Below, one piece after another: positions 10,576-34,245 of a stretch of 35,483 nucleotides of DNA. Both the position numbers and the translations under genes were made by a program. The DNA comes from a virus. The notes under the pieces are model-generated. The model worked only from the letters and a program-made list of their open reading frames with translations. It was not told the DNA's origin and did no database searches. The stretch's first letter is position 1; each line of letters begins with the position of its first letter. The stretch is taken from IMG/VR virus record IMGVR_UViG_3300025674_000155, positions 1 to 35,483 of that record; one strand, given 5' to 3'.

Positions 10576-10604
10576 TTTACAAAATGGTTAGAATGTATTA
10601 TAAT
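10576..10604 (+). promoter_or_regulatory. Early-type promoter P6 (before uvsX)
   Basis: TTTACA (10576-10581), 17 bp, TATAAT (10599-10604), with ATG-TAT before the -10. The AAACAC extension is absent. The predicted start is near 10611. The leader contains TAGGAG before ATG 10636. It drives the uvsX-41 operon. Confidence 0.83.
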
Positions 10605-10635
10605 ACTATAATATACAAAACTCTAGGAGTGATTA

Positions 10636-11685
10636 ATGTCAATAATGGATAAACTCAAAAAGAATTCCAAGTTAAAAGCTACGGAAGTTCTTTCTGAGTC
10701 CAAATTTTTTAATGAAAAGGATATGGTACCGACAGATGTACCTATGGTAAATGTCGCACTATCCGGATCAACAGAGGGTGGACTTGCCCCGGGCCTTACA
10801 GTCCTTGCCGGTCCATCAAAACACTTTAAAACATCATTTGCCTTATTAATGGCAAGTGCATATATGAAAAAATACAAAGATGCCGTAATGCTCTTTTACG
10901 ATTCAGAGTTTGGTTCACCTCAGGCATACTTTGAACAATTTGAAGTTGACACATCTCGTGTATTACATACACCAATCACAAACGTAGAAGAACTTAAATT
11001 TGATTTAATTGGTCAACTTGAAGGTCTGGATCGTAATGATAAGGTTATTATTGTTATTGATTCAATTGGTAATCTTGCATCCAAGAAAGAAATGGAAGAT
11101 GCCATCAATGAAAAATCTGTGGCCGATATGTCACGGGCCAAGGCACTTAAAGGTTTGTTCCGTATGACAACACCTTATCTTGCCATGAAAGATATTCCAC
11201 TTCTTGCAGTAAATCATACCTATCAAGAAATTGGATTATTCCCTAAGGCAATTGTGTCTGGTGGTACTGGCATTTATTACTCAGCCGATAACATTTGGAT
11301 CCTTGGTCGTAGACAGAATAAAAAGGGTACAGAGGTTACTGGTTATGACTTCGTAATCAATGTGGAAAAATCCCGGTACGTAAAAGAAAAATCCAAAATT
11401 CCTATTACCGTATCATGGGAAGGTGGTGTTGAAAAATACTCTGGCCTTCTGGATGTGGCAATGGTTGGTGGTTATGCACAGAAACCAAGCAATGGTTGGT
11501 ATGAGGCAATTGATCCATCAACTGGTGAAGTACTTACTGGCAAAACTCGTGAGGCCGGGACACTTGAAGAAGAATTTTGGGATCCAGTATTTGCCAAAAC
11601 AGATTTCAAAGAATACATTAAAAAGGCATATACGATTGGTCATAAATCAGAAATCGATATGGATGCACTAGTCGATGAAGCATAA
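10636..11685 (+). CDS. uvsX: UvsX, RecA-like recombinase
   Basis: The 349-aa strand-exchange protein is the T4 UvsX orthologue, which forms filaments on ssDNA for recombination-dependent replication and repair. Walker A is AGPSKHFKTS (residues 58-67), matching the phage-specific GPSKxFKS form, and Walker B lies at VIIVIDSIGNL. MFYDSEFG-like and NHTYQEIG segments also match. The C-terminus is acidic, as in T4 UvsX. Its last codons overlap the next gene by 11 nt, and the operon continues to the gp41 helicase, as in marine T4-like phages. Confidence 0.95.
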   Translation: MSIMDKLKKNSKLKATEVLSESKFFNEKDMVPTDVPMVNVALSGSTEGGLAPGLTVLAGPSKHFKTSFALLMASAYMKKYKDAVMLFYDSEFGSPQAYFEQFEVDTSRVLHTPITNVEELKFDLIGQLEGLDRNDKVIIVIDSIGNLASKKEMEDAINEKSVADMSRAKALKGLFRMTTPYLAMKDIPLLAVNHTYQEIGLFPKAIVSGGTGIYYSADNIWILGRRQNKKGTEVTGYDFVINVEKSRYVKEKSKIPITVSWEGGVEKYSGLLDVAMVGGYAQKPSNGWYEAIDPSTGEVLTGKTREAGTLEEEFWDPVFAKTDFKEYIKKAYTIGHKSEIDMDALVDEA

Positions 11686-11980
11686 AGAAAATGTAACGTA
11701 TGAATTAGTTCCATCGCCTGAGGATGAACAGGCATGGAACGTTCGTATTCTTGATGGTATGTACAATGAAACTGTTGTGAAATATGGTGCAATTAGTTTT
11801 AATGAACATGATGGAACTGATGAACAACTTTCATTTAACTTTACTGTTGTTGAATCTCCAGATAATGATTTATCTGAATCTGATGAGGACTTACAAGAAT
11901 TTGCAGGTAGACTTTTAGAGCATATTATTGTAAAGGCCATAGAAGCAGGTGAAATTGAAATGCAAGAACGGGAAACATGA
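11675..11980 (+). CDS. Unknown acidic protein between uvsX and helicase (101 aa)
   Basis: The 101-aa protein is highly acidic, with DNDLSESDEDLQEF preceding a helix LLEHIIVKAIEAGE. The N-terminal part reads as a small beta-rich domain (NVTYELVPSPEDEQAWNVRI). It overlaps uvsX by 11 nt and gene 41 by 4 nt, so it is translated with them. I recall a gene of similar size in this position in cyanophages, but without known function. It may modulate recombinase or helicase loading; that is inference from position only. Confidence 0.8.
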   Translation: MKHKENVTYELVPSPEDEQAWNVRILDGMYNETVVKYGAISFNEHDGTDEQLSFNFTVVESPDNDLSESDEDLQEFAGRLLEHIIVKAIEAGEIEMQERET

Positions 11981-13356
11981 AAGCAAATTTAGAACAAACA
12001 ATCCTTCGGAATATTCTGACTGATGAAAATTATATGCGTAAGGTATTGCCTTTCATCAAACCTGATTATTTCGAAGGTATATACAGAATCCTATTTAAGG
12101 AAACTGGTAAGTTTGTAGCCAAATATAACAAACTGCCTACAGCAGAAACCTTTAAAATTGAATTGGATTCATCTGATAGGTTATCTGGTGAAAATTATAC
12201 AGTTGCAGTTGATATTATCCCACAGTTGTTTTCCAAAGAACCAATTGATGAGCAATGGTTACTTGACAGTACAGAAAAGTGGTGTCAAGATAGAGCAATT
12301 TATAATGCCATTATGGAATCCATTTCAATCATTGATGGTAAACACGAATCACTAACAAAAGGGGCATTACCTGATCTATTATCCAAGGCACTTGGTGTTG
12401 CCTTTGATACCAATGTGGGTCACGATTATGTGGAAAACTATGAGGACAGATACGACTTCTACCACAAGGAGGAGGAGAGAATACCTTTTGACCTTGATTA
12501 CTTCAACAAGATCACCAAAGGTGGAATTCCTAATAAAACACTTAATATTGCTCTTGCTGGTACCGGGGTTGGTAAGTCTTTATTTATGTGTCACGTTGGG
12601 GCAAGTGCTCTTGTGGATGGTAAAAACGTTCTTTATATTACCATGGAAATGGCTGAAGAGAGAATTGCGGAACGTATCGATGCGAATCTTCTAAATGTAC
12701 CTATTGACCAATTACCAAATATGTCACGTGAAATGTTCCGAACCAAGGTTGAGGATATTGCACGTAAGACTACTGGTAAACTAATTGTGAAAGAATATCC
12801 TACTGGTTCTGCTCATGCCGGACACTTCCGTGCACTCTTAAATGAACTGAAATTAAAAAGACAATTTGAACCAGATATTATCTTTATTGATTACCTAAAT
12901 ATTTGTGCAAGTTCACGTATGAAAGGAATGGGTGGTGCTATCAATTCTTACAATTATATTAAGGCGATTGCAGAGGAACTCCGTGGTCTTGCAGTCGAAT
13001 TCGATGTCCCTGTTTTTAGTGCAACTCAGACTACACGTTCTGGCTATTCGAACTCGGATGTTGGCTTGGAAGATACATCTGAATCATTTGGTCTCCCGGC
13101 AACGGCAGACTTAATGTTTGCTCTTATCTCAACAGAAGAGCTAGAAAATATGGGTCAGATGATGGTTAAACAATTAAAGAATAGATATAATGATCCAACA
13201 TATAATAAGAGATTTGTGATTGGAGTTGACCGGGGTAAAATGAGATTATTTGATGTTGATGAAAATGAACAAACACTCACAGACGATACACCTGTATTTG
13301 ATAAAACAGAAATGCAAGGCAACATGTCAAAATTTAAGGACTTCAATATAGTATGA
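11977..13356 (+). CDS. 41: Replicative DNA helicase (T4 gp41 / DnaB family)
   Basis: The 459-aa hexameric 5'-3' helicase has an N-terminal DnaB-like helical domain (about 1-150) and a RecA-type motor. Walker A is AGTGVGKS (residues 194-201), followed by ITMEMAEERIAERIDANLL, Walker B PDIIFIDYLNIC and VPVFSATQTTR. Length equals that expected for T4 gp41 (475 aa). It unwinds DNA at the fork, usually with gp61 primase and gp59 loader, neither of which is visible here. It overlaps flanking genes by 4 nt on both sides (ATGA). Confidence 0.95.
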   Translation: MKANLEQTILRNILTDENYMRKVLPFIKPDYFEGIYRILFKETGKFVAKYNKLPTAETFKIELDSSDRLSGENYTVAVDIIPQLFSKEPIDEQWLLDSTEKWCQDRAIYNAIMESISIIDGKHESLTKGALPDLLSKALGVAFDTNVGHDYVENYEDRYDFYHKEEERIPFDLDYFNKITKGGIPNKTLNIALAGTGVGKSLFMCHVGASALVDGKNVLYITMEMAEERIAERIDANLLNVPIDQLPNMSREMFRTKVEDIARKTTGKLIVKEYPTGSAHAGHFRALLNELKLKRQFEPDIIFIDYLNICASSRMKGMGGAINSYNYIKAIAEELRGLAVEFDVPVFSATQTTRSGYSNSDVGLEDTSESFGLPATADLMFALISTEELENMGQMMVKQLKNRYNDPTYNKRFVIGVDRGKMRLFDVDENEQTLTDDTPVFDKTEMQGNMSKFKDFNIV

Positions 13357-27317: not shown

Positions 27318-27346
27318 AAAAAAGGCGGCTCCGGTCGCCTTTTTTT
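27318..27346 (+). terminator. Rho-independent terminator
   Basis: AAAAAAGGCG (27318-27327) pairs perfectly with CGCCTTTTTT (27336-27345) around an 8-nt loop, followed by further T. It closes the early operon after the transporter gene and is the clearest intrinsic terminator of the window. Confidence 0.92.
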
Positions 27347-27347
27347 G

Positions 27348-27376
27348 TTTACAAAATATTATAAATAGTGTATAAT
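27348..27376 (+). promoter_or_regulatory. Promoter P11 with embedded late element
   Basis: TTTACA (27348-27353), 17 bp, TATAAT (27371-27376) directly after the terminator. Inside the spacer is TATAAATA (27360-27367), a T4 late consensus. The two elements would start transcription near 27383 and 27374 respectively. This is consistent with the switch to late virion genes here. Confidence 0.72.
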
Positions 27377-27410
27377 AAACATATAATAAAAATTTTATAA
27401 GGTAATCACT

Positions 27411-28355
27411 ATGGAATCCTTTTTACGACATTTGACAAATAAAGAATTTGCCACTATGCTTCAGAATGATAAAATTAATAGTGAATATGAAAACATAGTA
27501 GAAGCAAAAAATTCCTCATTTGATGCAATTATTGATGCGACATTAAAAGATGAGGAAAAAAAGGTTCAGGGTAGATACAGTTTGCAAAATAAAAGTTTTA
27601 AACTAAATATTGATCGAAGAGATCAAGATGCCTTTGTAAAACTATTTAAAAAGGCCCCTGATAAAACAGTGGGTAATGGAGAGGTTTCCCTATATTGGTT
27701 ATTTAATGGTGGTACAAGAAAAAGGGCATATGAAACAAGAGGTGGTAATGAACCTGATCTAAAAATTGATGGCAAGTCTGTTGAGGTAAAAGCATACCCT
27801 TATCATGACCCTATCAGTCTAGGTAGATTTCAAGATCGTAGAGCATTCCGTAGTCTTGTCAATACTCTGTTTGGTGTTTCCAACTTGGCGCAAGCATTTG
27901 AAGGCGGCGAAGGTAGAGGTGAACAAAGTTTCAAAGGTGAATTATCATTTAAATATGATGACCTTCTAGCCAGTGCTCAGAAATTTTTGGACTTACAAGA
28001 TGTTTTAGCTGGTAATAAAAAAATCTTAGGTAAGTTTCCCGTATTTAAACAAATGGATAGAACAATAACCCAATTTAATACTGCAATGAAAGCAATTGGT
28101 CTAAATGCAAGAAACCCAAATGCAAATGATATTGCAATTCAATTAATGAAACATCTCATTGAAGTTTCTGTTGGTGATAAACCAGGTGATAAAGGATATA
28201 TTGCAAACCTTAAGGATAAGGATCCACTTGACATATATTTCCATTATATTGATTTTGCAAATATGACAGATGATGAAAAGATATTATCACAAAGGGGTAC
28301 ATTCTCAATTAATGGTGGTGTATTTAAAGCCAATTTCTCAAGGTTGTTTGGATAA
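27411..28355 (+). CDS. PD-(D/E)xK-like nuclease-fold protein, late gene
   Basis: The 314-aa protein contains NEPDLKIDGKSVEVKAYP, in which D116 and E125-V-K127 fit the PD-(D/E)xK metal-dependent nuclease core. The N-terminus (MESFLRHLTN) partly resembles capsid-targeting segments seen in the neighbours, and IVE31-A32 is a potential gp21-type cleavage site. No other domain is recognised. It could act in DNA processing during packaging or, if packaged, on host DNA after injection. It is first in the late operon behind P11 and is coupled to the next gene by TAATG. Confidence 0.65.
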   Translation: MESFLRHLTNKEFATMLQNDKINSEYENIVEAKNSSFDAIIDATLKDEEKKVQGRYSLQNKSFKLNIDRRDQDAFVKLFKKAPDKTVGNGEVSLYWLFNGGTRKRAYETRGGNEPDLKIDGKSVEVKAYPYHDPISLGRFQDRRAFRSLVNTLFGVSNLAQAFEGGEGRGEQSFKGELSFKYDDLLASAQKFLDLQDVLAGNKKILGKFPVFKQMDRTITQFNTAMKAIGLNARNPNANDIAIQLMKHLIEVSVGDKPGDKGYIANLKDKDPLDIYFHYIDFANMTDDEKILSQRGTFSINGGVFKANFSRLFG

Positions 28356-29056
28356 TGGCAATTAATCAGTACATAGACAATGACGCAATTAATATCGCAT
28401 CTGGTCGTGCAGTAAATCATAGGCATGTTCATAAGTTTGGATATAATCCTGATGCTAGTAATAATTATGAAGACATTTGGGCACAGGGTGGTCAGATTAC
28501 TTTTGCTACAGCAGGTCATGTTGCCACTATCGCTAGTAATTTAGCAAATGCTGGTTCTGAAATCACCATTCAAGGACTTGACGAAAATTATGATGAAATT
28601 GAAGAAGTATTATTAATTGATGGTTCGGGTAATGCTACTGGAACAAAAGAGTTTCTTAGAATCAACCGTGCCTTTGTTTCAAACGATACTCCAACCGAAG
28701 CAGTCATGCGTATACAACTCAATAGTGTGAATACTGCACGTATTGAAGTTGCCCATCAACAAACTATGCAAAACATTTATACAGTTCCGAGAGGTCATAC
28801 TGCATATCTTCTTCAGTTAAGTGTTGGAATTCAATCAAAGGATAAAGATGGTGAGTTTAGACTTTATGTGAGAGAACATGGTGGTTCTTTCAGAACAAGA
28901 GACTTCTTAACTATGCAGACTAATTTTATAGAAAAGCACTATCCTATTCCATTAAAGTTTCCTGAAAAGACCGACATAAAGTTACAATGTAAACTTACTG
29001 GTGCTGATGCTGGTGTATCAGGAACTTTTGACTTAATATTGGTAAAAGGCAGATGA
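28355..29056 (+). CDS. Probable virion structural protein (233 aa)
   Basis: The 233-aa protein is dominated by short beta-strand segments (ASNLANAGSEITIQGLDENY, RIEVAHQQTMQNIYTVPRGH) and ends in SGTFDLILVKGR, resembling beta-sandwich/jelly-roll virion proteins seen in marine phages. I cannot assign it to a specific T4 gene. It overlaps both neighbours (1 nt and 4 nt) in the late operon. Alternatives are a tail or head decoration protein. Confidence 0.62.
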   Translation: MAINQYIDNDAINIASGRAVNHRHVHKFGYNPDASNNYEDIWAQGGQITFATAGHVATIASNLANAGSEITIQGLDENYDEIEEVLLIDGSGNATGTKEFLRINRAFVSNDTPTEAVMRIQLNSVNTARIEVAHQQTMQNIYTVPRGHTAYLLQLSVGIQSKDKDGEFRLYVREHGGSFRTRDFLTMQTNFIEKHYPIPLKFPEKTDIKLQCKLTGADAGVSGTFDLILVKGR

Positions 29057-30282
29057 GAAATTTTAACGAATTCATAACAGAAAACAAGAATACACATATG
29101 ACCCATATCGAGGATAAAGTCCTATATGGGGGTGTAAACGGAACTAGAGAAGCAATAATGGCCTTAAGGTCATTAAGAGATATGCTAGGAGGAGTCAAAG
29201 ATGGTAATGTATCTGTTAAGTGGGACGGTGCTCCTGCTATCTTTGCTGGGACTGATCCTAGGGATGGCAGATTCTTCGTGGCGAAAAAGGGGATCTTTAA
29301 CAAATCTCCCAAAGTATACAAGAGCGATGCTGATATCGATGATGATACTAGTGGCGATCTTGCTGACAAACTTAAACTTGCTTTACAATATCTACCTGCT
29401 CTAGGAATAAAGGGTGTAATTCAAGGAGACTTTCTATATGGTCCAGGAGATGTTAAGAGGAAAAAAATTAAAGGTAAAACTTATATTACCTTTCACCCTA
29501 ATACGATCGTATATGCGTTACCTATTGGAACAGAAGCGGCCAATAAGGTCACAACAGCAAAAATCGGTATCGTATGGCACACCACATATACAGGCGAAAC
29601 ATTTGAATCTATGAAAGCATCTTATGGTGTTGATGTCAGTAAATTAAGACCATCAAAAGACGTATGGTCACAAGATGCGATGCTTCGTGATATGACGAAT
29701 TTTACCATGTCAAAGACAGATACAGAAGAAGTTAATGGTTATCTTTCAACAGCAGGTGTATTATTTAATCAAATCAGTGGCACAACACTTCGCCAATTAG
29801 AGGCAAACCCTAAACTTGCTCAAATGATTGAAACATATAATAATACGTTTGTCCGTAAAGGTCAAGTCATTACAAACACTCGTACGCATGTAGCCGGTCT
29901 TATTCGTTATATTAAAGGTAAATATAAAAAGGAAATTGATACACGTAAGACTTCTGCAGGTAAAGCAACTCAACAGGCTAAACTTGATGAACTTCTTGCA
30001 TTCTTTTCAAATTCCAATAAAAGATCATTACAAAGAATGTTCGATTTACAAAAAGTTATTGTATTAGCAAAACTAAAACTTATAAATATATTAAACAAAT
30101 TGTCAACAACTGATACTTTCTTAAAAACCAGTAATGGTTATAAAGTAACTGGAGAGGAAGGATATGTTGCAATTGACAAACTTGGTGGTGATGCAGTGAA
30201 AATTGTGGACCGTATGGAATTCTCATACGCAAACTTTTCACCCGATATATTAAAGGGATGGGATAAACCAGGAAGGAAGTGA
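29053..30282 (+). CDS. Polynucleotide-ligase-like nucleotidyltransferase with capsid-targeting-type N-terminus
   Basis: The 409-aa protein has VSVKWDGAPAIF with KxDG (K56, G59), the nucleotide-accepting motif I of ATP ligases and RNA ligases, then FFVAKKG (motif III-like) and IQGDFLYGP. A C-terminal EGYVAIDKLGGDAVKIVD could supply motif IV/V (EGxV, KI). The N-terminus MRNFNEFITEN mirrors T4 internal proteins (MKTYQEFIAEA) in spacing, with E10 as a gp21-type cleavage site. It may therefore be an enzyme packaged in the head. Enzyme class is fairly secure; packaging is inference. Confidence 0.75.
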   Translation: MRNFNEFITENKNTHMTHIEDKVLYGGVNGTREAIMALRSLRDMLGGVKDGNVSVKWDGAPAIFAGTDPRDGRFFVAKKGIFNKSPKVYKSDADIDDDTSGDLADKLKLALQYLPALGIKGVIQGDFLYGPGDVKRKKIKGKTYITFHPNTIVYALPIGTEAANKVTTAKIGIVWHTTYTGETFESMKASYGVDVSKLRPSKDVWSQDAMLRDMTNFTMSKTDTEEVNGYLSTAGVLFNQISGTTLRQLEANPKLAQMIETYNNTFVRKGQVITNTRTHVAGLIRYIKGKYKKEIDTRKTSAGKATQQAKLDELLAFFSNSNKRSLQRMFDLQKVIVLAKLKLINILNKLSTTDTFLKTSNGYKVTGEEGYVAIDKLGGDAVKIVDRMEFSYANFSPDILKGWDKPGRK

Positions 30283-30284
30283 TA

Positions 30285-30659
30285 ATGGCAAAACCATTGT
30301 CTTTTAAACTGTTTTCAGTAGACGAGGCTCTTACTGTACAGCAACGCATTCAGCGTGGCCGTCAGATGAAGAAGATCAAACATAAAATTGCTCTTGGTCG
30401 TAAAAAAGCGGCTCGTCGAATGGCCTCCAAAGACACTCTCGAAAAAAGATCCCTCCGACAAGCTCGAATAAATATCTTTAAGAAACTTACAAAAGGTATG
30501 GAAAAAAGTGAGCTTTCATTTTCACGTCGTGCAGAAATTGAAAAGAGACTTGGTTCTCCTACGATGAAAAGAAAGATTGCTACCATGGCCAAAAGAATGT
30601 TTAAAGATGTTAGGAAAAAAGAAATTGACCGTAAACGTGGACCAAAAAAGGAAACCTAG
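30285..30659 (+). CDS. Very basic late protein (124 aa)
   Basis: ATG 30285 was preferred over GTG 30279 because AGGAAG lies upstream. The 124-aa product is Lys/Arg-rich and helical (RIQRGRQMKKIKHKIALGR, KRKIATMAKRMFKDVRKKE). FSVDE14-A15 near the N-terminus fits a gp21-type cleavage site. It probably binds DNA and could be an internal head protein. Family unknown. Confidence 0.68.
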   Translation: MAKPLSFKLFSVDEALTVQQRIQRGRQMKKIKHKIALGRKKAARRMASKDTLEKRSLRQARINIFKKLTKGMEKSELSFSRRAEIEKRLGSPTMKRKIATMAKRMFKDVRKKEIDRKRGPKKET

Positions 30660-30662
30660 TCA

Positions 30663-31181
30663 ATGAAATTGTTTAGACAAATAAGACAAGAATTAGCAGA
30701 AGGTCGTGAGGATACAAACAAATTAATCAAAACTGCAATTCAAAACTTATCACACGGCCGAGGTAGTGATCACAGTGGTCATGAAGGTATGTCACGATAC
30801 CATTCATCTATGGCTGATGAGCATAAAGGCACTGAAGCTGCAAAACACCATAAACGTGCAGCAGATCACCATGCCCGAGCTATGGCCGCGTTGAAAAAAG
30901 GTAATTTAAAGGGTGGATTAACTCACGCAAAGAATGCCGCAGATGCTGCCGATGCCGCCAATAAAGCGCAGGGTAATAAAAGTAAATCCACTAGGGCAGG
31001 TAAAGCTGATTCCATGGCACTTTATAAAGACCATGAAAGAGAGACAAACTTCACTCAGCGCGCACGAGACCGTGATGATGAAAATTTAAGCAGAGGTAAG
31101 CCAAAAAGAAGTGACAAACCTATTCAACGTGCAATTGGTAAAACTAAAAGCAGAATTAGAAGAATGATAGGCAAACGTTAA
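30663..31181 (+). CDS. His/Lys/Ala-rich late protein with capsid-targeting-type N-terminus (172 aa)
   Basis: The 172-aa protein starts MKLFRQIRQELAEG, where F4, I7 and E10 match the spacing of T4 capsid-targeting segments, and LAE13-G14 is a gp21-type site. The middle is His/Ala-rich with repeated HHKRAADHHARAMAALKKGN, and the C-terminus is Arg/Lys-rich. It looks like a basic DNA-compacting or injected protein. No enzyme motif is seen. Confidence 0.66.
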   Translation: MKLFRQIRQELAEGREDTNKLIKTAIQNLSHGRGSDHSGHEGMSRYHSSMADEHKGTEAAKHHKRAADHHARAMAALKKGNLKGGLTHAKNAADAADAANKAQGNKSKSTRAGKADSMALYKDHERETNFTQRARDRDDENLSRGKPKRSDKPIQRAIGKTKSRIRRMIGKR

Positions 31182-32426
31182 GTGACAATTAATTCTTTTA
31201 AAAATTATCTTATTGAAGAAGAAAAGACGGTTTATTTTACCTTTGGTAGAATGAATCCACCTACTATTGGGCATGAAAAACTTTTGGATAAATTATCACA
31301 AAGTGCTGGTAAAAATCCATATAAGGTTTATCTTTCCCAAACTCAAGACGCAGACAAAAATCCCCTGTCATATAGAGATAAAGTAAAGTTTGCCCGTAAA
31401 ATGTTTCCAAGACATGCACGGCAAATTATGATGGACACATCAGTTAAAAATATCTTTGACATAGCAGTAAAGTTATATAACGAAGGATTTAAAAATGTGG
31501 CTATGGTTGTTGGTTCTGATCGTATTCGTGAGTTTGATATTCTATTAAAAAAATATAATGCCAAAAAAGGTAAACATGGGTTTTATAATTTTGCAAAAAT
31601 CACTGTAGTATCTGCAGGTGATCGTGACCCAGATGCCGAAGGTGCTGAAGGAATGTCTGCATCTAAGATGAGGGCAGCTGCCTCATCAAATGATTTCTCT
31701 CAATTCTCTCAAGGGTTACCAAAGGCCGTTGGTAATGCTGACGCCAAAAAGATTTATAATTCAGTTCGGTCTGGTATGGGTCTTACAGAACAAACACAAT
31801 TTAAAAATCATATTCAACTTGAACCAATTTCAGAAATAAGAGAATCCTATATGGATGGTAAATTATTTGAAATTGGTGACGAGGTAGTAATTAAAGGACA
31901 AGGTGTAGTTGCTGAAATAAAACACTTAGGCACAAATTATGTCATTGTGGAATCCAAGGGTGAAATTTATAGAAAGTGGCTAACAGACGTAGAAAAAGTT
32001 GATCCTAATGAAGAATTTGAATATGATGTAGTTGATTTTATAAAATTGGATGAGGCAAAGAAATCCGAAAGAAAACCTGGAGAGGATCCGGACATTGGAG
32101 ATCGTAAAGGATCACAACCTGCTGGATATTATAGAGGCCTTAAAAAATCCACAAAGCAAAAACGTGCAGCACATTTTGCCAAACACGGTAAAAAAGATGA
32201 TGATGACGATTCTGCATATAAACCAGCGCCTGGTGATAAAACCGCAAAAACCAAACCTTCTGTGCATACTAAAAAATTCAAACAAATGTTCGGCGAACAA
32301 GACAGAGTTGATATTGCTAAAAAAAGAATTAAAAGACAAAAGGCAGCTGCAGCTAAACGTCACGACAGTATGATGGACAGAGCTCGTATTAGAGATGCTA
32401 AGAAAAAAAATAGGGAAACATCATGA
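31182..32426 (+). CDS. Nucleotidyltransferase (TxGH) fused to KOW-like and basic C-terminal region
   Basis: GTG 31182 follows the upstream stop directly. The 414-aa protein has an N-terminal segment INSFKNYLIEEE with capsid-targeting-like spacing, then FTFGRMNPPTIGHEKLL (T28-x-G-H31), AMVVGSDRIREF and MSASKMRAAA, equivalent to HxGH and ISSTxxR of NMNAT/NadR/cytidylyltransferases. Residues about 220-270 resemble a KOW-type beta barrel (EIGDEVVIKGQGVVAEIKHL). The C-terminus (YYRGLKKSTKQKRAAHFAKH and beyond) is Lys/Arg-rich. LDE-A motifs near 285-290 could be protease sites. It might act on NAD or nucleotides in the host after injection. Confidence 0.72.
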   Translation: MTINSFKNYLIEEEKTVYFTFGRMNPPTIGHEKLLDKLSQSAGKNPYKVYLSQTQDADKNPLSYRDKVKFARKMFPRHARQIMMDTSVKNIFDIAVKLYNEGFKNVAMVVGSDRIREFDILLKKYNAKKGKHGFYNFAKITVVSAGDRDPDAEGAEGMSASKMRAAASSNDFSQFSQGLPKAVGNADAKKIYNSVRSGMGLTEQTQFKNHIQLEPISEIRESYMDGKLFEIGDEVVIKGQGVVAEIKHLGTNYVIVESKGEIYRKWLTDVEKVDPNEEFEYDVVDFIKLDEAKKSERKPGEDPDIGDRKGSQPAGYYRGLKKSTKQKRAAHFAKHGKKDDDDDSAYKPAPGDKTAKTKPSVHTKKFKQMFGEQDRVDIAKKRIKRQKAAAAKRHDSMMDRARIRDAKKKNRETS

Positions 32427-32674
32427 TTAAATTTAATCAATATATCGAAGAAAAGGCTGATGCTGGTCTAAAGAAAAAGGCCGAAAAATCTGGTATGCCA
32501 CTTGGTATCCTACGCAAGGTATATAATCGTGGTGTTGCCGCTTGGAGAACAGGCCATCGCCCAGGTACAACACCACAGCAATGGGGAATGGCTCGTGTCA
32601 ATTCATTTGTAACTAAGTCCTCAGGTACTTGGGGTAAAGCAGATAAAGATTTAGCAGCAAAGGTAAGAGGATAA
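32423..32674 (+). CDS. DUF5824-like small protein (83 aa)
   Basis: The 83-aa protein contains KSGMPLGILRKVYNRGVAAW, then RTGHRPGTTPQQWGMARVNSF, a highly conserved phage motif I associate with DUF5824 (from memory). The N-terminus MIKFNQYIEEK has F4, Y7, I8 and E10 at capsid-targeting spacing. Function unknown. It overlaps the upstream stop (ATGA). Confidence 0.72.
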   Translation: MIKFNQYIEEKADAGLKKKAEKSGMPLGILRKVYNRGVAAWRTGHRPGTTPQQWGMARVNSFVTKSSGTWGKADKDLAAKVRG

Positions 32675-32675
32675 A

Positions 32676-33413
32676 ATGAAAACATTAGATGAAATAAAAT
32701 CAGAACTTGATGAAGGTATTATTGGTGCAGTAGGTAAAGGTATTAAGAAAGTTGCAAGTCCTGTAACTAATCGTTTGACAACCACAGGTCGTGCTAAAAT
32801 TGCTCAAAAGAAAATTGATAAACACAATACCAAGGTGCAACAAAAAGATACAATTGCAAAAGCAAATGCGGCTGGTAAATCTGCCTTTGGACTTACTCAA
32901 AAATCAAGAGCAGCAAATGCTAAAAAGAAATTAGATAAAATTGCTCAGAAAAAAGCGGCCCAAGATACTATTGCTCGCGCCAAACAATTAAAAAAAGGTG
33001 TAACTGCTGGTATGGAATATGAAGGCAAGAAAATGGATTCCGCTGCTATGAAAAAGGCAATGGATGTTTTCAAGAAACGTGGTGGTAAAATTAAAAAGGT
33101 TGCTCCTGGTAAGGCAGCAGGATATCACGGTAAAGATGATCCTGGTGCAAATATGCATGGTATGATGGATCGTGGTGACACTAAGGGGTTCAATCGTAAG
33201 AAAAAAGTAAAGTCAATGGGTCGTGAACAAGTTGATGAGATCTCTAAGAAAACTGCAGGATCATATATCAAAAAGGCTTCAGATAATATGAGTAGACAGG
33301 CAGACAAAATGGCTAGAGCTCAACGCGCCGATGGTCCACCGGACAAGGCAGTTAATAAGTTTGTTAATCGTCGCACAGGTATTGCTCGAGCGGTAAATCG
33401 GTTGACTAAGTAG
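32676..33413 (+). CDS. Lys/Ala-rich basic late protein (245 aa)
   Basis: The 245-aa protein is strongly basic with heptad-like Lys/Ala repeats (IAQKKIDKHNTKVQQKDTIA, AKKKLDKIAQKKAAQDTIAR). It starts MKTLDEIKSELDEG with L4, I7, E10 and an LDE13-G14 site. VDEISKKTAGSYIKKASD near the C-terminus is a motif I recall from marine T4-like head or core proteins. It probably binds DNA in the head. No enzymatic motif is seen. Confidence 0.67.
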   Translation: MKTLDEIKSELDEGIIGAVGKGIKKVASPVTNRLTTTGRAKIAQKKIDKHNTKVQQKDTIAKANAAGKSAFGLTQKSRAANAKKKLDKIAQKKAAQDTIARAKQLKKGVTAGMEYEGKKMDSAAMKKAMDVFKKRGGKIKKVAPGKAAGYHGKDDPGANMHGMMDRGDTKGFNRKKKVKSMGREQVDEISKKTAGSYIKKASDNMSRQADKMARAQRADGPPDKAVNKFVNRRTGIARAVNRLTK

Positions 33414-33422
33414 GAGTATGAG

Positions 33423-33644
33423 ATGAAAAAGTTTAAAGGATTTTACGAGGCAATGAAATTTGAAGTAGACATTGAAGGTTTACCAAAAGTCTATATGGAT
33501 GGTAATTCACCATCTGAGGTAAAGGCACATCTTCGTAAATTAGTTAAACAACCATCTATGATCAAATCAGTAAATCGGATGACAAAACATGACGTTAAAA
33601 AAGTCTACAGAGACAAAGCCCAAGGCAAAGACCAAAGTTCTTGA
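33423..33644 (+). CDS. Small conserved late protein (73 aa)
   Basis: ATG 33423 follows GGAGTATGAG. The 73-aa protein reads KFEVDIEGLPKVYMDGNSPS, then EVKAHLRKLVKQPSMIKSV and a basic tail. It starts MKKFKGFYEAM, matching F4/F7 capsid-targeting spacing with FYE9-A10. I recall close relatives in marine T4-like phages of unknown function. The next gene begins 56 nt before its stop. Confidence 0.68.
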   Translation: MKKFKGFYEAMKFEVDIEGLPKVYMDGNSPSEVKAHLRKLVKQPSMIKSVNRMTKHDVKKVYRDKAQGKDQSS

Positions 33645-34245
33645 TTACGGAACTCCTGAAGCTACAGCAAAGGCAATTGCAATGACACCAGGACAGAAAA
33701 TGATTAAGTTTAAAGAACATTTACAAAATCAAGACCTTTTATATCATGCAGAAAATGATATTCCTCTGGGTGAGCTTTATCGTGTTGGGTCACAATCCTA
33801 TTATAGGGTATTCCGTGAGGCCAGAGAATTATATTCTGACGGAAAGGTTGAACTTTCTGGATTAAATCTTCATTTAATTGAAAATACGGATATTGGCGAA
33901 TTTGGTCAATATGAAGGAAACCCTGTCCCATTAGATTCTCCAATGGTTATGGAATCTGAATATGATGGTCGGGATGTTGAATTGAATAAACCCAAAAAGG
34001 GTGGACCAAAAAAGTATTATGTGTATGTTAAGGACCCATCAACTGGTAATATTAAAAAGGTTACGTGGGGTGATACCACTGGATTAAAAGTCAAATTAAA
34101 TGATAAAGGTGCTCGGGCATCATTTGCTGCAAGACATAAATGTGATACGAGAAAAGATAGAACAAAGGCTTCATATTGGGCATGTAATTTACCAAGATAT
34201 GCAAAACAATTGGGGTTAAGTGGAGGAGGCAACTTCTTTTGGTAG
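33589..34245 (+). CDS. Conserved late protein with Cys-containing C-terminal motif (218 aa)
   Basis: The 218-aa protein begins at ATG 33589, overlapping the previous gene by 56 nt. The C-terminal third (KYYVYVKDPSTGNIKKVTWG, FAARHKCDTRKDRTKASYW, ACNLPRYAKQLGLSGGG) resembles a block widely conserved in marine T4-like phages, with two Cys that might bind metal. The middle, GELYRVGSQSYYRVFREARELY, is separate. Probably a virion component. A GGAGGAGG near its end serves the next gene. Confidence 0.67.
   Translation: MTLKKSTETKPKAKTKVLDYGTPEATAKAIAMTPGQKMIKFKEHLQNQDLLYHAENDIPLGELYRVGSQSYYRVFREARELYSDGKVELSGLNLHLIENTDIGEFGQYEGNPVPLDSPMVMESEYDGRDVELNKPKKGGPKKYYVYVKDPSTGNIKKVTWGDTTGLKVKLNDKGARASFAARHKCDTRKDRTKASYWACNLPRYAKQLGLSGGGNFFW

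Follow-up and report, generated by a model that had tools for sequence, protein, structure and literature searches.

Why should adjacent genes for seemingly unrelated proteins, some of them enzyme-like, begin with short N-terminal peptides of a similar pattern? The question is raised by a gene cluster at positions 27411-33644 of the IMG/VR virus record IMGVR_UViG_3300025674_000155, a 35,483-base viral record that carries T4-type replication genes, as read from its list of open reading frames (ORFs), and is here called the window. Genes are named by their first position. The published sources used are PMC3037559, PMC10665884, PMC9602691, PMC9146016, PMC9964418, PMC9026906 and PMC5512222. In T4, the first 10 residues of the capsid-targeting tag suffice; positions 4 and 7 matter chiefly for targeting, 8 and 10 for processing, and the protease gp21 cleaves after L/I-x-E (PMC9026906).

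We propose that the N-terminal peptides of the cluster are T4-type capsid-targeting propeptides, and that the proteins bearing them are packaged in the head and leave it with the DNA. This reading as a whole is probable. Packaging together with processing is highly probable, ejection into the host is somewhat less certain though still favoured, and a counter-defence or repair role for the packaged enzymes is a tentative suggestion. Packaging by T4-type propeptides, as put forward in an earlier note on this DNA, is well supported because the T4-critical positions are conserved, the tag is separable and sits on many unrelated families, relatives encode the protease, and orthologues are found in virions by mass spectrometry (MS). 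It does not extend to every gene in the stretch.

A T4-type motif at consecutive N-termini

The tagged and tag-like features of the cluster are as follows.

27411..28355, + strand: 314-aa protein with a nuclease-like D116...E125-V-K127 motif (PD-(D/E)xK by eye) and a variant propeptide, IVE-AKNSSF, at residues 29-37; homologues in IMG/VR
29053..30282, + strand: DUF6267 protein, candidate ligase-type nucleotidyltransferase (K56WDG); PF19782, E 2.8e-104
29053..29082, + strand: capsid-targeting-type tag MRNFNEFITE of the DUF6267 protein; conserved in relatives, with untagged homologues starting just after it
30285..30659, + strand: small, very basic protein (isoelectric point, pI, 11.6) with variant tag SFKLFSVDE-A; ATG at 30285 preferred over GTG at 30279
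30663..31181, + strand: basic protein with variant N-terminus MKLFRQIRQELAE-G; few homologues, N-termini MKSFFQIREELEEG and MKTFDQIREELSEG
31182..32426, + strand: nicotinamide mononucleotide (NMN)-type adenylyltransferase-like protein (TIGH; SASKMR); phrog_3041, E 5.6e-81; annotated as cytidyltransferase in relatives
31182..31217, + strand: capsid-targeting-type tag (M)TINSFKNYLIE; F, L and E fixed in 106/106 distinct relatives
32423..32674, + strand: 83-aa basic protein of DUF5824 type, separately tagged (MIKFNQYIEE); PF19141, E 8.6e-19
32676..33413, + strand: basic protein with variant N-terminus MKTLDEIKSELDE-G; LDE-GII kept in homologues, residues before LDE vary
33423..33644, + strand: 73-aa basic protein with variant N-terminus MKKFKGFYE-A; relatives MKSFKSFYEAMTF and MYKFKAFYEAMTF

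The six N-termini quoted in the earlier note are all present where it placed them. The pattern that it saw in them is strong in three, 29053 (FNEFITE), 31182 (FKNYLIE) and 32423 (FNQYIEE), which carry the strict T4 spacing (hydrophobic at i, i+3 and i+4, Glu at i+6, corresponding to T4 positions 4, 7, 8 and 10), and weaker in 30663, 32676 and 33423. From 27411 onward, 3 of 13 genes show the strict pattern, where shuffling yields 0.20 on average (p=0.00065); of the 35 upstream genes, none does. A matrix trained on relatives' tags scores the three proteins at 18.4, 21.5 and 9.9, respectively.

The looser N-termini of 30663 (MKLFRQIRQELAEG) and 32676 (MKTLDEIKSELDEG) have hydrophobics at 4 and 7 and LxE-G at 11-14. 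That of 33423 (MKKFKGFYEA) has its Glu at 9, and in 27411 I-x-E-A is not reached before residues 29-32; the (I/L)xE site is shifted from 8-10 in all four. A spacing-relaxed pattern, picked post hoc with the data already seen, takes in 6 of the 13 genes (null 0.32; 0/2000 shuffles reach 6) and again 0/35 upstream, adding 30279/30285 (SFKLFSVDE-A) and leaving out 33423. Untagged are 28355, the genes from 34239 onward and probably 33700. The description of these proteins as very basic is borne out: the pI is 8.9-11.6 in the eight that are tagged or tag-like, compared with an upstream median of 5.74.

A second conserved tag class, MKxFxxIRxELxEG, was considered for 30663 and 32676. Few homologues share it, none of them in C48C1, S-CREM2, G001 or G002, and the two N-termini are therefore kept as mere variants.

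Conservation and separability of the tag

Among isolates, Phage C48C1 is the nearest relative of the window, with Melnitz and HTVC008M next; all three are classed in Kyanoviridae. Comparing the N-termini of related phages, one of the checks named in the earlier note, bears the pattern out. In 108 distinct DNA sequences of DUF6267 relatives, F is retained 107 times, I 103 times and E without exception, and the F, L and E of the adenylyltransferase tag are kept in each of 106 distinct relatives, with Leu written in six codons. Such silent changes beneath fixed residues indicate constraint on the protein and not on the DNA. Across 67 distinct DUF6267 N-termini the entropies at positions 4-10 are 0.11, 2.46, 1.88, 1.44, 0.11, 0.92 and 0.00, the values at F4 (0.11), [FY]7 (1.44), I8 (0.11) and E10 (0.00) lying below those at positions 5 and 6; position 7 is His or another residue in some relatives.

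The motif might instead be an ordinary N-terminal helix or part of the fold, carrying no targeting signal, and abundant late proteins might turn up in virions through carry-over. The model of 31182 does show a helix at residues 4-13. Conservation confined to the T4-critical sites speaks against this explanation, which we hold to be very unlikely, and so do homologues that lack the tag. The untagged DUF6267 proteins of S-SZBM1 (MAKNTH..) and S-PM2 (MATQNKH..) begin at the core, where the window protein reads ITEN-KNTH. Among stand-alone DUF5824-type proteins, 49 of 81 distinct N-termini score at least 6 with the tag matrix, and of the other 32, most of the 25 listed retain F4 and F/Y7, the E being displaced; where DUF5824 is fused to the adenylyltransferase, 0 of 5 copies have an internal tag. 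Judged from these sequences, the tag is a separable add-on. In the 27411 family, (I/L)xE-A is kept at the core border in closer relatives (variants LNE-A, INE-A, LYE-A, LKE-A and IVE-A) behind a leader of varying length; distant relatives (L225-L230) are without this border.

In C48C1 the strict pattern is found in 5 of 19 cluster genes and 3 of 184 elsewhere, overall 8/203 against 1.66 expected. These counts cover 203 coding sequences (CDS) and exclude four that span piece ends as well as an upstream re-reading of CDS89. One C48C1 gene is annotated from MNPPTIGH, and an upstream start would give VIKNFSQYLLEEE. In two near-full IMG/VR relatives, using simple gene calls, the pattern occurs in 4/245 (2.3 expected) and 7/216 (2.36 expected), from which we conclude that the whole-genome excess is small and lies mainly in this locus. 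As a side observation, C48C1 CDS102 (L081:19833-20009, 58 aa), MKTFQEFMKQFEEE, lies outside the counted cluster and resembles a degenerate tag.

The five best-scoring C48C1 proteins all lie inside the cluster, as would be expected if duplication within the locus had spread an inherited leader, so that several genes descended from one tagged ancestor and the families were not independent. We consider this improbable to a high degree: without their first ten residues the cores mostly cluster separately, and the tagged genes of S-CREM2 are far apart (gp6-14, gp136 and gp154).

Candidate tagged cargoes in related loci

The tag matrix, for which two families supplied the training tags, was run over 171 related loci. 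On the plus strand it matches 455 of 2775 ORFs, where a shuffle gives 14.6; on the minus strand it matches 7 of 3006. By construction or nearly so, 285 of the 357 distinct matched proteins belong to the training families and a merged DUF5824 group. The remaining 72 fall into 16 clusters; starts or sequence make at least 3 of these look like chance. Among the 72 are a protein resembling zeta-toxin/AAA_33 and polynucleotide kinase and, encoded 5' of DUF6267, several in which nuclease-like motifs can be recognised by eye. The tagged P-loop protein at L115:830-1483 (MLGFKSYIEEG) matches Zeta_toxin (7.3e-12) and a polynucleotide kinase PHROG. In the clustering of cores mentioned above, the adenylyltransferase and DUF5824 groups merge via fused proteins. 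That unrelated families bear the same tag also argues against an ordinary helix.

Different phages fill the slot 5' of DUF6267 with unrelated tagged proteins, and in several of these a D...xK nuclease-like motif can be seen by eye:

L007:2691-3536, L004:349-1170, L055:1111-2175, L016:1718-3112, L001:6973-7992 and window 27411-28355: DUF6267-upstream slot proteins

Tagged proteins in virions

C48C1 encodes prohead protease (T4-type), scaffold and capsid genes, and three of six relatives' records, among them the two that are near-full, contain a prohead protease. A search of the window record, a 35-kb fragment, for an S77 protease gave no match, and neither did the control.

We compared the published S-CREM2 virion list (PMC10665884, Table 3) with the S-CREM2 proteins, counting 215 CDS and excluding gp85 and gp217-219. 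The matrix picks 7 of the 215: 5 of 28 MS-detected non-structural proteins (gp6, gp13, gp14, gp136 and gp154) versus 2 of 164 undetected ones (p=8e-4). With the orthologue gp154 set aside, 4 of 27 detected proteins pass (p=0.004). A hand-made pattern reproduces 5/28 and 2/164, and a broader one gives 5/28 versus 4/164 (p=0.004). A rank test over all scores is weaker (area under the curve 0.65, p=0.006) because most virion proteins are untagged. This enrichment among MS-detected proteins is a further point against an ordinary helix. Of the genes concerned, gp6 encodes an S-adenosylmethionine (SAM) lyase (PF23780, E 2.3e-19, Pfam). The SAM lyase gp6 (L085:3837-5081) and the kinase-like gp14 (10579-12846) are virion proteins with T4-type tags, and the tags are a possible packaging mechanism for both.

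Orthologues of 31182 have been detected in particles of S-SM1, S-SCSM1, S-SZBM1 and S-CREM2 (for S-CREM2, PMC10665884). The tag is present in 3 of 3 N-termini examined, S-SM1 not included (MKNFSSFLTEA, MKSFLQFLKEA and MRFRQFIIEA). In S-SZBM1, the tagged adenylyltransferase is in the virion table, whereas the untagged DUF6267 protein is not.

Several points weigh against packaging by these tags. The tags of 27411, 30663, 32676 and 33423 are variants accepted post hoc, and both pattern and matrix were settled after some S-CREM2 N-termini had been seen. In HTVC008M the homologue of 31182 starts with MKTLKELLRKK and lacks the Glu. S-SZBM1 proteins 139 and 136 are in virions though untagged. In S-SCSM1 only the NMNAT-like gp281 is tagged among 16 virion-labelled proteins examined, a sample that leaves out most named structural proteins and gp145, and five undetected proteins match the pattern at annotated starts. 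Such matches among undetected proteins, like the carry-over that the S-CREM2 authors consider possible (PMC10665884), also fit an ordinary helix. The S-SCSM1 counts mean that the tag is not required for all virion proteins and is not proof of packaging; together with the untagged virion proteins of S-SZBM1 they suggest that it is one route into the particle and not the sole one. As a separate observation, S-CREM2 gp156 (L084:6013-6726) is untagged and virion-detected, with an NTP_transf_2 match barely above the Pfam cut-off.

Enzyme-like proteins of the cluster

The enzyme folds named in the earlier note fare unequally. That of 31182, with its TxGH motif, is well supported by modelling as an NMN/phosphopantetheine adenylyltransferase-superfamily fold. 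The best Foldseek matches of the model are PPAT, NaMNAT and NMNAT (E 2e-4), with TM by target of 0.71 for PPAT and 0.63 for NaMNAT/NMNAT, and T, G and H of TIGH are invariant in relatives; the Pfam match is below cut-off. The protein starts at a GTG codon and reads (M)TINSFKNYLIEEE. The resemblance of 29053 to a ligase-type nucleotidyltransferase, with the KxDG motif, is moderately supported. It matches PF19782 at 349.9 bits (cut-off 27), and K56WDG is invariant in relatives. Residues 52-213 of a model of middling confidence (pLDDT 68) match the RNA/DNA ligases 6vtd, 6imj, 8uci and 7rpx (Z 5.2-5.7). Foldseek gave no match below 0.001 for it; the ligase rows come from a second aligner, in which most other rows concern the helical part. 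Both 29053 and 31182 match successive parts of phrog_455, suggesting that in some phages proteins of these types are joined into one and that they act jointly.

In 27411, D116, E125 and K127 are invariant in 3 aligned homologues, and VEVKAYP is kept in most of the distant ones, though it was itself a search pattern. It has no Pfam match, and no homologue was found in the phage isolate collection. The C48C1 homologue of 30285 begins MLSFKQFVSEV.

These motifs bear on a further alternative: targeting and cleavage would occur as in T4, but the tagged proteins would belong to the prohead core or help to pack DNA inside the head, serving assembly or condensation, and would have nothing to do in the new host. 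In its favour, T4 IPIII influences head assembly (PMC9026906), and the small window proteins are very basic (pI 9.8-11.6). The retention of enzyme motifs and folds in 29053, 31182 and the kinase-like L115:830 speaks against such a role, and the tagged SAM lyase of S-CREM2 would be an unlikely scaffold. We judge this alternative improbable, although less so than the two above.

Neighbouring genes and genomic setting

Two further genes belong to the stretch.

28355..29056, + strand: untagged acidic protein (pI 5.9), homologue of S-CREM2 gp176; 34% identity, E 2e-42
33700..34245, + strand: probable start of the gene listed at 33589; MIKFKEHLQNQ is tag-like but without Glu; phrog_7595 match

Since S-CREM2 gp176 (L084:19309-20019) is virion-detected, untagged virion proteins may also lie within the cluster. 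The gene listed at 33589 probably begins at 33700 because its listed start overlaps 33423-33644.

In S-PM2, HTVC008M, Melnitz, S-SZBM1 and S-SCSM1, homologues of the cluster genes have the gp41-type helicase gene on one side and the primase/ribonucleotide reductase genes on the other. Immediately 5' of the cluster (window 27330-27411), a terminator-like hairpin and T run are followed by TATAAATA at 27360. This lone site is no evidence on its own, and the claim that the genes are late found no backing in promoter sites of the TATAAATA type: these precede DUF6267 in 3 of 74 loci (5.1 expected), and ATAAATA occurs at 14 sites in the window (18.3 expected), neither being enriched. Ten cluster proteins gave no match to PADLOC anti-defence families or to the Alt family, a sequence search of solved structures gave weak, implausible matches only, and a literature search on nicotinamide adenine dinucleotide and anti-defence gave no direct lead.

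A model for packaging and injection

To return to packaging by T4-type propeptides, the tag would bind a gp22-type prohead core, and a gp21-type protease would then cut after (I/L)xE. The released basic proteins would remain in the head with the DNA and exit with it at infection. Here, the injected set may comprise the nuclease-like 27411, the ligase-type nucleotidyltransferase 29053, the NMN-type adenylyltransferase 31182 and the small basic proteins, which would act before phage transcription begins, most likely on nucleic acids or nucleotides.

More broadly, we give about even chances to the idea that T4-like phages of the ocean make almost any protein injectable by means of a 10-13-residue, protease-removed head tag, and keep an exchangeable cargo locus between replication genes. 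That locus would hold nuclease-like proteins, a ligase-type nucleotidyltransferase, an NMN-type adenylyltransferase and a zeta-toxin/polynucleotide-kinase-like protein, with a tagged SAM lyase and kinase elsewhere in a cyanophage genome. On that view the tag could be read directly from genomes, and the injected proteome of such phages could then be listed. The ocean is rich in T4-like phages, whose proteins mostly lack a known role; a tag predicting particle-borne proteins would pick out those that are first to meet the host. It also offers a testable reason for the presence of NMNAT-like enzymes, a SAM hydrolase and kinases in cyanophage virions, for which the parts of the sources available state no packaging mechanism.

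Comparison with known systems

Among the open-access matches listed, no paper pairs capsid targeting with pelagiphages or cyanomyoviruses, and a narrower search on cyanophages turned up a single paper, the T4 review PMC9026906.

A close counterpart is the tag of T4 IPI-IPIII, which is likewise N-terminal and about 10 residues long, with hydrophobics at 4, 7 and 8, Glu at 10, basic cargo and a gp21-type protease (in our case in relatives). Unlike IPI-IPIII, the proposed cargo is drawn from many unrelated families, with enzyme-like proteins of 314-414 aa among them; some tags have a longer spacing before (I/L)xE, and cleavage is predicted from sequence. T4 Alt is also a packaged enzyme whose propeptide is cut by gp21, but differs from the window proteins in being an ADP-ribosyltransferase with a 7-residue propeptide (PMC9026906). 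The ejection proteins of the jumbo phages SPN3US and phiKZ are similarly packaged in the head and cut after Glu by prohead proteases; the available parts of those accounts describe no short common tag of the T4 type.

Virion enzymes of cyanophages, namely the T4-GC190 citidylyltransferase, NMNAT-like proteins and the SAM hydrolase and APH-like kinase of S-CREM2, provide a second parallel. 31182 is homologous to the virion-detected cytidylyltransferases, and several of these enzymes bear the same tag as the window proteins. The papers propose them as virion-carried and, in the parts available, name no packaging signal. Use of the tag for various cargoes by T4-like phages has already been proposed (PMC9026906). 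Added here are the extension of the T4 tag to marine phages, enzymes as its cargo, and the agreement with a published virion list.

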